Positions 20,102 through 28,743 of a stretch of 64,000 bases of DNA are shown here, one piece after another (position 1 is the first letter of the stretch; each line of letters begins with the position of its first letter). The DNA lies in contig JAGWFS010000004.1 in assembly GCA_028867785.1 (NCBI GenBank), positions 124,001-188,000 on the forward strand, read 5' to 3'. Made by a program: the position numbers and the translations under genes. The notes below the pieces were generated by a model. The model made no database searches. It worked only from the letters and a program-made list of their open reading frames with translations, and was not told the origin of the DNA. This stretch comes from Nitrososphaerota archaeon. Its GTDB lineage: Archaea; Thermoproteota; Nitrososphaeria; Nitrososphaerales; Nitrosopumilaceae.

Positions 20102-20887
20102 TCAGAAATTTTCTTTTTTTACTTTAATGAGCCGCATGATTATTTCCATTGACAGTCCGGCTGCAAGAACAGAGAGTGCGATTACCAGCGGCCAGAAAAA
20201 CTCTGGAGTGCCGGAACCCGGAGTGAAAAACGGAGTTCCAGAGCCTGCATGGGGATTGTGCAATACCGTAGTCACTCTCTCCCTTGCAAGTTTTAGCATC
20301 TCTTCAAGTGTTGCACCAGAGCCAATTCCCCCGTCTCCCGAATATGGACCTCCTACTCCGTTGTAAAATGGATTGTAGCTTGTAGACCCAGCACTAGTTG
20401 GAATCTTTTGCAATTCTTGACCAAGATCTGGCGTACTGATGCCAGTCCCCTGCAGTGCTCCTGTTGCAAACCATGAACCAATTGCGGCAATCCCAACTGC
20501 CCCAAATCGATAAATCGACTTGAAAGATCTGACAAGCGACTTGCTTGACTTGGTTTTCTCCGAGAACTTGGAAGGCACGATGACAATTGCAAATTTTGTC
20601 GCAGTATAGTATTTCATGTCGTGTGATTTTGTATTTTTTCCTATCTTTGATATGTCAACCAATCCAACGTCCTGCATCTTTTTTAGATGGTATCGCACAA
20701 GCTGCAACGAGAATCCGGTCTTTGTAGCAATCTCGTTTGCGGTAAGTGCTTCGTCAAACAATAATTTCAATACCGTTCTGCTTGCATCAGTTATCAAGAC
20801 TTCTCCCAGCGTTCTCAATCGTTCATCATCTGTGTCATAAATGCCAACTCTCTCCGGTACTGGCTGTCTTGTTTTTTCTAAAGTCAT
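20102..20887 (-). CDS. Membrane-anchored winged-helix (ArsR-like) regulator
   Basis: 261 residues. Residues about 20-110 form a winged HTH (SRTVLKLLFDEALTANEIATKTGFS and following LVRYHLKKMQDVGLVD). One hydrophobic segment sits near residues 131-148 and a second near 230-250, so the C-terminal 100-residue loop between them should lie outside the cytoplasm. That loop holds ATLEEMLKLARERVTTV and SGTPFFTPG, which recur almost identically in the divergent gene at 20987. The arrangement suggests a one-component sensor that binds DNA from the membrane. Function and ligand unknown. Confidence 0.75.
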   Translation of the reverse strand: MTLEKTRQPVPERVGIYDTDDERLRTLGEVLITDASRTVLKLLFDEALTANEIATKTGFSLQLVRYHLKKMQDVGLVDISKIGKNTKSHDMKYYTATKFAIVIVPSKFSEKTKSSKSLVRSFKSIYRFGAVGIAAIGSWFATGALQGTGISTPDLGQELQKIPTSAGSTSYNPFYNGVGGPYSGDGGIGSGATLEEMLKLARERVTTVLHNPHAGSGTPFFTPGSGTPEFFWPLVIALSVLAAGLSMEIIMRLIKVKKENF

Positions 20888-20986
20888 ATCAAAACGTACA
20901 GTAGTTTGGTCATGATACTATGTAAAACTTTTGATGAAATTCTACTTTCATCAAACGCTAAATCCAAAATTCTCGTATTGTATATC

Positions 20987-21310
20987 ATGAAACAAAACAA
21001 AATTCTTTCCACAACATTGCTTGGATTTGTTGTGGCAAGTACACTGATGCCACTGGCATTTGCACAGACATATTACCCGTCCCCAAGCAGTGGGATGACC
21101 CTTGAGGAACAATTGAAGCTTGCAAGAGAGCGCATCGAGGTAGTCAGGGCTCATCCAGGCGACGGTTCTGGTACTCCATACCTGAATCCAGAAGGAGTGG
21201 TCGGGGCCACAATAATATGCGGTGCAGTTTTCGGAGGCATATTTGTCGCATTTGTAGTGCGTGCAAAACAGATAGAAAAGAAATTGGCAGCAAAGAAACT
21301 GCTCCAATAA
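20987..21310 (+). CDS. Small secreted/membrane partner of the divergent regulator
   Basis: 107 residues from the ATG at 20987; a longer frame begins at 20906 but the extra 27 residues precede an obvious signal peptide (KQNKILSTTLLGFVVASTLMPLAFA, cleavage after AFA), so the later start is right. The mature part has MTLEEQLKLARERIEVV and GSGTPYLNPEG, then one TM helix near residues 73-93 and a basic tail. The shared motif with the regulator at 20102-20887 points to a co-evolved pair. I know no named family for it. Confidence 0.75.
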   Translation: MKQNKILSTTLLGFVVASTLMPLAFAQTYYPSPSSGMTLEEQLKLARERIEVVRAHPGDGSGTPYLNPEGVVGATIICGAVFGGIFVAFVVRAKQIEKKLAAKKLLQ

Positions 21311-22248: not shown

Positions 22249-22337
22249 CTTTGTTCCAATAATGTCTCATTACGACACAATAATTATATTCTCAACGCAT
22301 ACCACCCGATTCGGTAGCCCGATAGTCTAGTGGCCAA

Positions 22338-22353
22338 ACAATTTTTGGGCTAG
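22338..22353 (+). other. Non-canonical D-loop intron of tRNA-Gln
   Basis: Removing these 16 nt restores the D arm. A bulge-helix-bulge forms: GGCC (22332-22335) pairs with GGCT (22348-22351), flanked by three-base bulges AAA and AGG. Inside, CAA-TTT-TTG makes a perfect three-pair hairpin. Cuts after the second base of each bulge give the expected exons. Confidence 0.75.
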
Positions 22354-22369
22354 GGATTCCAGGCTCTGG

Positions 22370-22384
22370 ATCATACGAGAGGAC
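22370..22384 (+). other. Anticodon-loop intron (37/38) of tRNA-Gln
   Basis: These 15 nt interrupt the anticodon loop at the canonical position between residues 37 and 38. Removal gives the seven-base loop CTCTGGA. The exon-intron helix is weaker than in the other intron (contains a mismatch), so exact cut sites could shift, but other choices give an implausible base 37 or another anticodon. Confidence 0.65.
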
Positions 22385-22424
22385 ACCTGGAGACGGCAGT
22401 TCGAATCTGCCTCGGGCTATCCTA

Positions 22425-26367: not shown

Positions 26368-28743
26368 TCAAATTTTTACTATTCCAAGTCTAACTAGATA
26401 CTCGATTCCTTTGAGAAAGTCATTATCTGATACCTTTCCGCTTGCCCACCAACCTGCACTGGTCTTCACCCATGTAGGTATTGTCTGAGCAGACGAAGAA
26501 CCAGAATGCAGGTTTGGAACTTTTAGTATCCCTTGCTCTATGAGATACTGTATGCCCTTGACAAAATCTTGGTCTCCGACTTGTCCCTGCGACCACCACT
26601 TGGCGTTGTTTCTTATCCAGTTAGGAATTTGCGTGGCATTAGCTGGAGTTGATCCAGTTGCATTGGCTGTCAATGTAGGTTGAACTTCTAATGCCGATAT
26701 CTCTACTTGAGATTGATTTTCAGACTTGCTCAGATAATAGTTGCATATTACCTTCATGTAGGATGCTTCTGTATAATACGCAGAATCCGGTGGAACCTTT
26801 TTTGCATATTCCAGCGCCTTGCCAAAGTCCATAAGAAAATGGTAATACATACGAGCCTTTAGTACGTCTAGATTCACTGCTGAAAGACCCCCATCGTTCA
26901 AGGCCAACTGAGAATATTCGTTAGCCATGTCCTGCTTTCCCATCTTTTCATAGATTAGTGATTTTTCAAAGTTGTCTAGATCTTCTGAATGCTGTGTACC
27001 ACCGCCAAGCTGTTTGTAAAACTCGTCAACGTAAAGAATCGCCTCGTCATATTTTCCGTTGCTGTACAGTATGCCGATTTTTAATTGATAATCCAGAGGA
27101 TACAAAATAGCATTATCAATTGATTGCAGTGCGTCAGAGTATCTTCCCATAAAGAACAGTGTTGTTGCCTTGACCCTCAGTTCCTCACTGTCTGACGGAT
27201 CCATCTGTAAGACCTTGTTTTCATAAACAAGCGAATCATTATACCTTCCAAGGCCCACCAAGGCAGATGCTTTTGTAGCCAATTCAGCTTCATCGTTTGG
27301 ATGGGCATTCAGAGAGTCATCAGCCTGAACAATGTTTGATACTATCTGCGTCATGTTGCTGTATGCATAGTCTTTATCATTCTGGGCATCAGCATTTTGT
27401 GGTTCAAGCTGTAAGTCCCTGTCACAATATTCATAGGCCTCAACCCATATTTGGGAGGCAAAAAACGCTTTGCATTTGAGTGCAATGCTGCTTGCATTGT
27501 CCGAACTGAAATCCTCAGGCGTTGTGGAAATGATTTGTTTTGTAAGATCAACCACGGTGTTGCTTGATGGCAGGAAGTTTGGTACGTTGTAGTTAACTGT
27601 AAAGGGAAGATTGACGCTGGCACCGGTTGAACCATATTGAAGGAAATAATGATATGTTCCATTTTTAGTCCAAAGAGGGCCCAGAATTCGCATCCCACCT
27701 GTGAATGAACCATCAACATTTACAGGTCCTTCACCTTTGTACACAATCTCATTACTTGGACCTGTAATGACTGATGAAAGAATAGTTCCTACTACGGCAT
27801 GTTGTATGTTTACTGAAACTGTAATTGTATCTCCATAGTTGTACAAAGTCTTGTCAGTTGATGCGGTGATTATCGGGATTTCTTGTACTGGGTTTTGCGG
27901 ACCTCCTACAGAAAAGGAAAATGTTGCAGTTTGAGTAGATATGGGCTGGAATACTATGCCTTCAACTCCGACTTTTACCTGATAGGTACCGTCTGCCGGA
28001 AATTGTATCGGTATGTCAACAGAGCCTTTTGCTGTGTGAAGAGGCGTGTCTGGCGACCCACTCCCCAGAATTTGTTGGTCTCCCCGCGTTACAATTACAT
28101 AATAATCAATGTGAGGTTGTATCGCCCGAGTGTATTTGCCGATGAAGCTTACATGAAGAACTGCCTGACTTCCAGGAGTCGGGTTTGCTGGAGTTACCGA
28201 AAATTCGACATAAATAAGACCTCCATCGGTGAGTTTGACCTGTTGTTGAGATGAGGTGGCTGCAACAGAAGATGATGTTGGTGTTAACATAGTCTGTTGA
28301 GATGACTGTCCTGGCGAGACAGACGCACCTGTACCAACATTATGAATAACCGTGTATCCACTCGAGGATTGTTGGACTGTAATTATTCCTGTCATCCATT
28401 GATATGACTCGTCATAAAAACGAATTGTACCAGAATCAGATTGGGTAATAGTATAAGAAAAGTATTGACCGGGTTTCATTATACCACTATCAAATTTTCC
28501 ATCAGGTCCGGAACTTGGAATTCCCGATATTATCTCGTGTGGGACCGTATCTCCGTTTCCAAAAAGTATGATCTGACCAACAAATGCTGATATTGAAGAT
28601 GGATAAAATGTCAAATGTTGACTCGGATCAGAAGATCCTGTGTGAATGTCAATTTCAACAGGCTCTGAAGTACTATCTGCAAAAACTGGTGTTTGGATTA
28701 TGAAATCACAAATTGCCATAATTAATACAACGTACAATGACAT
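26368..28743 (-). CDS. Large secreted protein: cupredoxin-like, Ig-like, TPR and C-terminal repeats
   Basis: 791 residues with an N-terminal signal (cleavage near PVFA). Residues about 25-128 form a cupredoxin-like domain that keeps PHE and WM but has Asp and Tyr where the copper Cys and second His should be. Two Ig-like beta domains follow; the second (STDKTLYNYGDTITVSVNI onward) is related to the domain in the PEFG proteins at 40-43 kb. Residues about 415-670 are helical TPR-like repeats. The end has two copies of a roughly 40-residue W-rich repeat (WIRNNAKWWSQG and WVKTSAGWWASG). No C-terminal anchor. Probably a cell-surface scaffold. Confidence 0.75.
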   Translation of the reverse strand: MSLYVVLIMAICDFIIQTPVFADSTSEPVEIDIHTGSSDPSQHLTFYPSSISAFVGQIILFGNGDTVPHEIISGIPSSGPDGKFDSGIMKPGQYFSYTITQSDSGTIRFYDESYQWMTGIITVQQSSSGYTVIHNVGTGASVSPGQSSQQTMLTPTSSSVAATSSQQQVKLTDGGLIYVEFSVTPANPTPGSQAVLHVSFIGKYTRAIQPHIDYYVIVTRGDQQILGSGSPDTPLHTAKGSVDIPIQFPADGTYQVKVGVEGIVFQPISTQTATFSFSVGGPQNPVQEIPIITASTDKTLYNYGDTITVSVNIQHAVVGTILSSVITGPSNEIVYKGEGPVNVDGSFTGGMRILGPLWTKNGTYHYFLQYGSTGASVNLPFTVNYNVPNFLPSSNTVVDLTKQIISTTPEDFSSDNASSIALKCKAFFASQIWVEAYEYCDRDLQLEPQNADAQNDKDYAYSNMTQIVSNIVQADDSLNAHPNDEAELATKASALVGLGRYNDSLVYENKVLQMDPSDSEELRVKATTLFFMGRYSDALQSIDNAILYPLDYQLKIGILYSNGKYDEAILYVDEFYKQLGGGTQHSEDLDNFEKSLIYEKMGKQDMANEYSQLALNDGGLSAVNLDVLKARMYYHFLMDFGKALEYAKKVPPDSAYYTEASYMKVICNYYLSKSENQSQVEISALEVQPTLTANATGSTPANATQIPNWIRNNAKWWSQGQVGDQDFVKGIQYLIEQGILKVPNLHSGSSSAQTIPTWVKTSAGWWASGKVSDNDFLKGIEYLVRLGIVKI

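Follow-up and report, generated by a model that had tools for sequence, protein, structure and literature searches.

Membrane-bound one-component regulators of the ToxR/CadC type carry an OmpR/PhoB-type winged helix and a single transmembrane helix. The drug-sensing BlaR1/MecR1 systems combine a protease with a separate repressor, BlaI, and their sensor is paralogous to an exported protein encoded by a divergent gene. In this paper we describe a locus with likenesses to both, located in a Nitrososphaerota archaeon (Nitrosopumilaceae; assembly GCA_028867785.1, contig JAGWFS010000004.1, positions 124,001-188,000 of the forward strand; these 64,000 nucleotides are called the window, and coordinates are given within it). 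Two neighbouring genes encode a membrane-anchored winged-helix regulator with an AmoZ-like ectodomain and AmoZ2, which by homology is an exported paralogue, with a single transmembrane helix, of the ammonia monooxygenase (AMO) subunit AmoZ. The genome of the window, referred to as G000, comprises 2.5 Mb in 327 contigs.

Archaeal nitrification has AMO as its key enzyme, of which the subunits Y and Z became known only in 2023. AmoY and AmoZ were reported as new archaeal AMO subunits, with amoZ directly upstream of amoY; between the amoYZ pair and amoABCX the distance is 11-12 genes in Nitrosotalea, and in other Nitrosopumilaceae it is 1-2 genes (Hodgskiss et al. 2023, PMC10030591). In the same work the AmoZ ectodomain was modelled on the soluble domain of AmoB, with its transmembrane helix near AmoY or AmoB/AmoA, and two ectodomain cysteines were reported for the AmoZ of Nitrososphaera and Nitrosocaldaceae; membership of the AMO complex is published for canonical AmoZ only (PMC10030591). 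A spare AMO subunit is known from ammonia-oxidizing bacteria, in which, as cited in PMC10030591, the divergent AmoC3 takes part in a stress response.

The regulator, AmoZ2 and their linkage

The original prediction, made from the letters of the window alone, proposed two divergent open reading frames (ORFs) with a common extracellular motif. Both ORFs were confirmed, the regulator (261 amino acids; ORF, Pfam, genome search, AlphaFold and Foldseek) at 20102-20887 on the minus strand and AmoZ2 (107 amino acids; homology and predicted topology) at 20987-21310 on the plus strand. The common motif is real: SGATLEEMLKLARERV...NPHAGSGTPFFTP of the regulator (residues 190-223; 20219-20320, minus strand) and SGMTLEEQLKLARERI...GDGSGTPYLNP of AmoZ2 (21089-21190, plus strand) have 21/34 identities, with E=1e-11 for the pair, and the two proteins retrieve each other in a whole-genome search of G000 (E=1.8e-6 and 3.7e-7).

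The origin of the motif in AmoZ had been missed. AmoZ2 has one full-length paralogue in G000 (contig C316, 59% identity, E=1.2e-30), whose gene lies directly 5' of a gene for an AmoY-like protein of 90 amino acids with one transmembrane helix. A ribosomal-protein-S15-like gene diverges upstream of this pair, and an ammonium transporter gene (amt) and amoB are found a few genes on, where the contig ends, in agreement with the layout published for Nitrosotalea. A homologous amoZ-amoY pair lies 1-2 genes from amoB/amoC/amoX/amoA in five genomes of other genera, and more distant AmoZ homologues, of which several have the two ectodomain cysteines, occur at one or a few per genome in three more of the families that make up the order. 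Because of the homology, the amoY and amo neighbourhood and the cysteines, the C316 gene is assigned as AmoZ, the small protein of the window as its paralogue AmoZ2, and the regulator ectodomain as AmoZ-like. Canonical AmoZ lies beside amoY and near amoABCX, whereas AmoZ2 at the window locus does neither. An AmoZ profile retrieves both AmoZ and AmoZ2, and in the genomes inspected closely its matches are limited to AmoZ-type proteins, regulators and one protein with a VWA domain. A sequence search of the PDB with AmoZ2, AmoZ or AmoY gave no solved relative.

Linkage of the two genes was examined in two surveys. AmoZ2 matches and full-length regulator matches adjoin each other across 250 genomes of the family, and 79 regulator ORFs of the family were then compared in a named GTDB collection. 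By a strict count an AmoZ-like gene stands next to 29/29 regulators that bear the ectodomain and to 0/44 that lack it (Fisher p=5e-21), and after reading of the sequences an adjacent AmoZ2 is present at 32/32 assessable domain-bearing loci against 0/44 domain-free ones, the loci not being fully independent of one another. Two domain-bearing loci are cut by contig ends, one of which (L172) shows the start of AmoZ2 while the other (L157) is not assessable. Four apparent exceptions on the domain-free side trace to a frameshifted domain (L156), to a broken gene present as two fragments (L180) and to a GSGTS variant that escaped the search expression (L193). L177 has lost the neighbour, and GSGTP has there decayed to VSGSP. 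The domain-bearing regulators form three clades separated by domain-free ones, and the two genes are divergent in two of these clades and codirectional in the third. Co-occurrence of the motifs in gene pairs, which the original prediction had proposed as a check, was thus found across several genera, and the outcome that would have counted against it, a common and unlinked motif, is rejected, as domain-free regulators of the family never have an AmoZ2 neighbour. With the identity of the parts, this linkage is held with high confidence.

A general rule by which regulators of this family copy their neighbours was also considered and rejected: in no case does a relative without the ectodomain have its loop in common with an unrelated neighbour, so that only AmoZ is copied. 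AmoZ2 resembles the AmoZ of its own lineage, cytoplasmic tail included, and the AmoZ tree rejects a single AmoZ2 clade (p=0.0057). As read from these sequences, this pattern is one of repeated duplication or concerted evolution, and since AmoZ2 follows the AmoZ of its lineage it suggests that the two may face the same partner.

In AmoZ2 a predicted signal peptide (20987-21064, plus strand) is followed by a helix at residues 39-55 and by one predicted membrane helix, GVVGATIICGAVFGGIFVAF (21194-21262, plus strand), with a basic cytoplasmic tail after it, which bears out the exported protein with a single membrane helix that had been proposed. The regulator likewise has the proposed topology, an ArsR-like helix-turn-helix (HTH) domain and two membrane helices, as judged from AlphaFold, Pfam and hydropathy in relatives. 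From the N-terminus it consists of an ArsR-like winged helix (residues 21-96; 20600-20827), a membrane helix (residues 118-149; 20441-20536), the AmoZ-like ectodomain and a second membrane helix (about residues 231-251; 20135-20197, with a basic cytoplasmic tail after it), all on the minus strand. The winged helix passes the cut-offs of two Pfam families (PF12840, 28.6 bits with a cut-off of 27; PF01022, 25.3 bits with a cut-off of 22) and scores below the NCBIfam cut-off for the ArsR/SmtB family. It is modelled with a predicted local distance difference test (pLDDT) score of about 90, and its Foldseek neighbours are the PH1932, Phr, SmtB and CzrA folds. AlphaFold places the remaining helices at 118-149 and 231-260, with an ectodomain helix at 194-210. 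The first membrane helix is weakly hydrophobic in the window copy (1.27) and reaches 1.5-2.1 in most of 30 relatives; the second is also AmoZ-like (IFGGLAAFFFIKS) in one clade. The 261 residues include no cysteine and histidines at 67, 89, 210 and 213 only, so the metal-binding cysteine/histidine site of ArsR/SmtB proteins is absent, and with two predicted membrane helices the regulator is not a soluble homodimer of that kind. A Pfam search of the same sequence found neither a zinc metalloprotease domain nor a separate repressor.

Related loci were noted in other genomes. In Candidatus Nitrosotalea sp. TS and FS (L156, L163/L145, L180) the regulators are frameshifted, stopped or truncated and AmoZ2 is intact, and strain TS has two copies of the regulator-AmoZ2 pair, one of them at a contig end. 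At L322 (G118:C1:1441000-1447500) there is a second, partly broken module with a split HTH-transmembrane regulator and an AmoZ2 gene with an operator-like palindrome. The same locus encodes a VWA-domain protein of 603 amino acids, of which the N-terminal part has another AmoZ-like ectodomain (GGYMGNVGTEGQTDSYTLEEALELQSRRIESAETNPASGSGTPYQN).

The operator and its regulon

The original prediction had named the intergenic stretch 20888-20986 as a common promoter region, and this is borne out, although the 26-bp palindrome within it was overlooked. The perfect palindromic operator TTTGATGAAA-TTCTAC-TTTCATCAAA (20930-20955; sequence, conservation and genome scans) stands between the divergent genes and is conserved. 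On its regulator side lies a conserved TATGTAAAACT (20919-20929, no strand assigned), and on the other a conserved CGCTAAATCCAAAATT (20956-20971, plus strand); these are probable core promoter elements of the regulator gene and of amoZ2, respectively. Allowing three mismatches still gives no other match to the operator in the window (0.02 expected), and at two mismatches or fewer the 2.5 Mb of G000 contain two sites, both perfect, against 0 for the reversed control. Among genomes of the genus it is found with at most one mismatch in 17/18 that have the regulator, the exception (G199) being cut by a contig end, and in 0/19 that do not (p=1e-9). Its spacing to the amoZ2 start hardly varies within the genus. 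Among other genera the right half, TTTCATCAAA, keeps its position while the left half changes to TTAGTGAAA or a TTGGTAAAA-like sequence, and in the codirectional arrangement the operator is still 5' of amoZ2. Excluded from the regulon were two-mismatch matches in G188, G189, G205 and G211 and a one-mismatch match in G198, all of them within unrelated genes or at their ends.

A third gene under the same operator had also gone unnoticed. The second site of G000 (contig C11, 4626-4651 in L120) precedes a gene for an exported beta-sandwich protein of 187 amino acids with a weak PEFG-CTERM match. In five other genomes this gene lies directly 3' of the regulator gene, with the right half-site before it in 4/5 and a fuller palindrome in three, and in G208 it is in trans, with a perfect operator. 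Because the operator accompanies the beta-sandwich gene to new places, there is strong evidence for a predicted three-gene regulon of amoZ2, the regulator itself and the beta-sandwich gene. Control of the canonical amo genes through this operator was considered and rejected, as there are only the two genome sites and none stands before amoZ or any examined amoC; the regulator therefore seems not to control AMO itself. The copper-limitation motif of N. viennensis, TTCSGSMTTTGWACYANT (PMC7785015), differs from the operator of the module.

The surroundings of the second operator in L120 (G000:C11:1-14000) are concerned with copper handling and encode a CopA-type P-ATPase with HMA domains, a CsoR-like protein of 85 amino acids, a protein that is Lrp/TRASH-like by sequence and an exported BNR/propeller-like protein of 1253 amino acids. 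Nitrosopumilus-like genomes (L313, L317, L319, L324, L325, L326 and L329) have palindromes of a related kind, TTGGTAAAA or TTAGTAAAA-N6-TTTCATCAAA with close variants, 31 nt before the start codons of exported proteins, among them families of 246 and 624-627 amino acids; at L326 the palindrome is right behind a multicopper oxidase gene. Sites of the type TTAGTGAAA-N6-TTTTACCAAA precede domain-free regulator paralogues in such genomes. These palindromes suggest that membrane-tethered regulators with operators of this sort form a larger family. Within the window, 6 kb from the module, an exported protein of 791 amino acids (26368-28743, minus strand) has a cupredoxin-like start by eye and TPR-like repeats, and one stretch of it is about 37% identical to the beta-sandwich protein. 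A stretch at 22316-22421 (plus strand), next to a ribosomal protein gene, resembles by eye an intron-containing tRNA gene; ARAGORN gave no hit in it.

A whole second AMO is rejected, as AmoY is single in every genome where it was found. A few genomes have an extra amoC, mostly with its own small HTH gene and without the shared operator, and in two Nitrosopumilus genomes it lies, again with its own small HTH gene, 1.5-5.3 kb from the module. The extra copies (L338:1637-2773, L335:2667-3807, L336:2671-3821 and L181:1-710) are 95-96% identical to canonical amoC where complete, and each is divergent from an HTH gene of 103-129 amino acids; two are near the amoZ2 module. An extra amoC and its HTH gene may possibly be a second subunit-plus-regulator module.

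What the ectodomain may sense

We consider it somewhat more probable than its opposite that the regulator senses AMO through the AmoZ-like ectodomain and controls AmoZ2, itself and the beta-sandwich protein; control of AmoZ2, taken by itself, is very probable. The homology, the linkage, the operator and its sharing among three genes are observed in the genomes; we infer AMO as the docking partner, as well as the signal and the sign of control (activation or repression). A regulator dimer would bind the palindrome between the two core promoters and control amoZ2, its own gene and the distant exported beta-sandwich (PEFG-CTERM-like) gene. Outside the membrane the regulator would display the AmoZ-type helix and GSGTP loop, which would probably take the docking site of AmoZ or AmoZ2 on the AMO complex, most likely on the AmoB/AmoY side. 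Free, incomplete, damaged or altered AMO would change the state of the regulator, which would be reported to the promoter, and the supply of the alternative subunit AmoZ2 would be adjusted. The original prediction, which is partly supported, had suggested that the two proteins might interact or compete outside the membrane, the small one tuning the regulator. The AMO complex, a likely third party, was not part of it. More tentatively, and with a greater chance of being wrong than right, the regulator could insert into or dock on AMO as a surrogate AmoZ, read its assembly or damage and switch the cell to AmoZ2. On this doubtful extension, a transcription factor with a fused-on copy of an enzyme subunit would have evolved, or been re-matched, several times in ammonia-oxidizing archaea.

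The main rival to AMO sensing dispenses with contact to the enzyme: the regulator helix would pair in the membrane with AmoZ2 or AmoZ and so count free AmoZ-type subunits, the count opening or shutting the shared promoter. Such feedback would fit the near-perfect one-to-one linkage, the operator common to both genes, the same helix and GSGTP loop kept in both proteins and the loss of AmoZ2 together with decay of the motif at L177. In the window genome, however, the regulator motif has 17/26 identities with AmoZ2 against 19/26 with canonical AmoZ, and so is not especially close to AmoZ2, and AmoZ2 evolves with the AmoZ of its lineage, which is what a common AMO partner would lead one to expect, so that we judge this rival unlikely while giving it real weight. 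We think it improbable that the AmoZ-like segment only keeps the regulator in AMO-rich membrane while another signal, such as copper or envelope stress, is read through the membrane helices. The copper-handling cluster at the second operator of G000 (CopA-type ATPase, CsoR-like and, by sequence, TRASH-like proteins) speaks for such an address label, as do regulator relatives that lack the AmoZ part and keep two membrane helices and similar palindromes, but the regulator has no cysteine and four histidines, the AmoZ-like segment is retained only along with AmoZ2, and the stretch of G208 that was read shows no copper surroundings. Mere chance, or a common membrane-protein motif with the pairing as a neighbour effect, might be entertained for a motif of about 34 residues in close genomes that are not independent; its probability is negligible given the E-value of the pair, the linkage at all assessable loci and at no domain-free one, the three separate regulator clades and the narrow range of AmoZ-profile matches in closely inspected genomes. 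Chance similarity of the two motifs is refuted by the first two of these.

Several points weigh against AMO sensing itself. The module is missing from most Nitrosopumilaceae genomes, about half of the genus included, and neither canonical amoZ nor any of the examined amoC copies has the operator before it. Beyond the winged helix, AlphaFold gives a poor model of the regulator (mean pLDDT 60.6, predicted template modelling score 0.33), the AmoZ tree has 105 columns only, with weak deep forks, and the copper P-ATPase cluster near the second G000 operator was not seen in the read part of G208.

Significance and comparison with known systems

The AmoZ papers among the literature searched make no mention of a paralogue or of an AmoZ-bearing regulator, a search with amo genes and transcription-factor terms returned no paper, and in the literature searched we found no dedicated regulator tied to an AMO subunit. 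The original prediction called the unit one of a kind not known from the literature; each part is of a known kind (AmoZ, an ArsR-type winged helix, a membrane one-component regulator), and the combination was likewise not found in the literature searched. If AMO sensing is true, ammonia-oxidizing archaea may have a direct readout of the state of their key enzyme, and a module with a defined operator and regulon makes such sensing directly testable. The module is also independent evolutionary evidence for the AmoZ ectodomain, with its helix and GSGTP loop, as a docking element.

AmoZ2 has the signal peptide, ectodomain helix, GSGTP loop, G-rich membrane helix (FGGI) and lineage-specific cytoplasmic tail of AmoZ, but it lacks amoY as a neighbour, comes with an operator of its own and a linked regulator, and occurs in a minority of genomes. 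Like AmoC3 it is a spare AMO subunit, here a putative one, with its own control, although AmoC3, as far as it is described in the work that cites it, is a different subunit, is bacterial and has no subunit-copying regulator. The regulator has the DNA-binding fold and palindromic AT-rich operator of ArsR/SmtB proteins (PF01022, PF12840; PH1932, Phr, SmtB, CzrA) and differs from them in the lack of a cysteine metal site, in its two membrane helices and in its extracytoplasmic AmoZ-like segment. As in BlaR1/MecR1, the outside sensor is homologous to the exported protein of a linked gene, but the DNA-binding domain is in the same polypeptide, with no protease and no separate repressor. By its predicted topology it joins, as do ToxR/CadC-type proteins, a membrane-tethered cytoplasmic winged helix to a sensor part outside, whereas its winged helix is of the ArsR rather than the OmpR type, its membrane helices are two, and its sensor is copied from an enzyme subunit.
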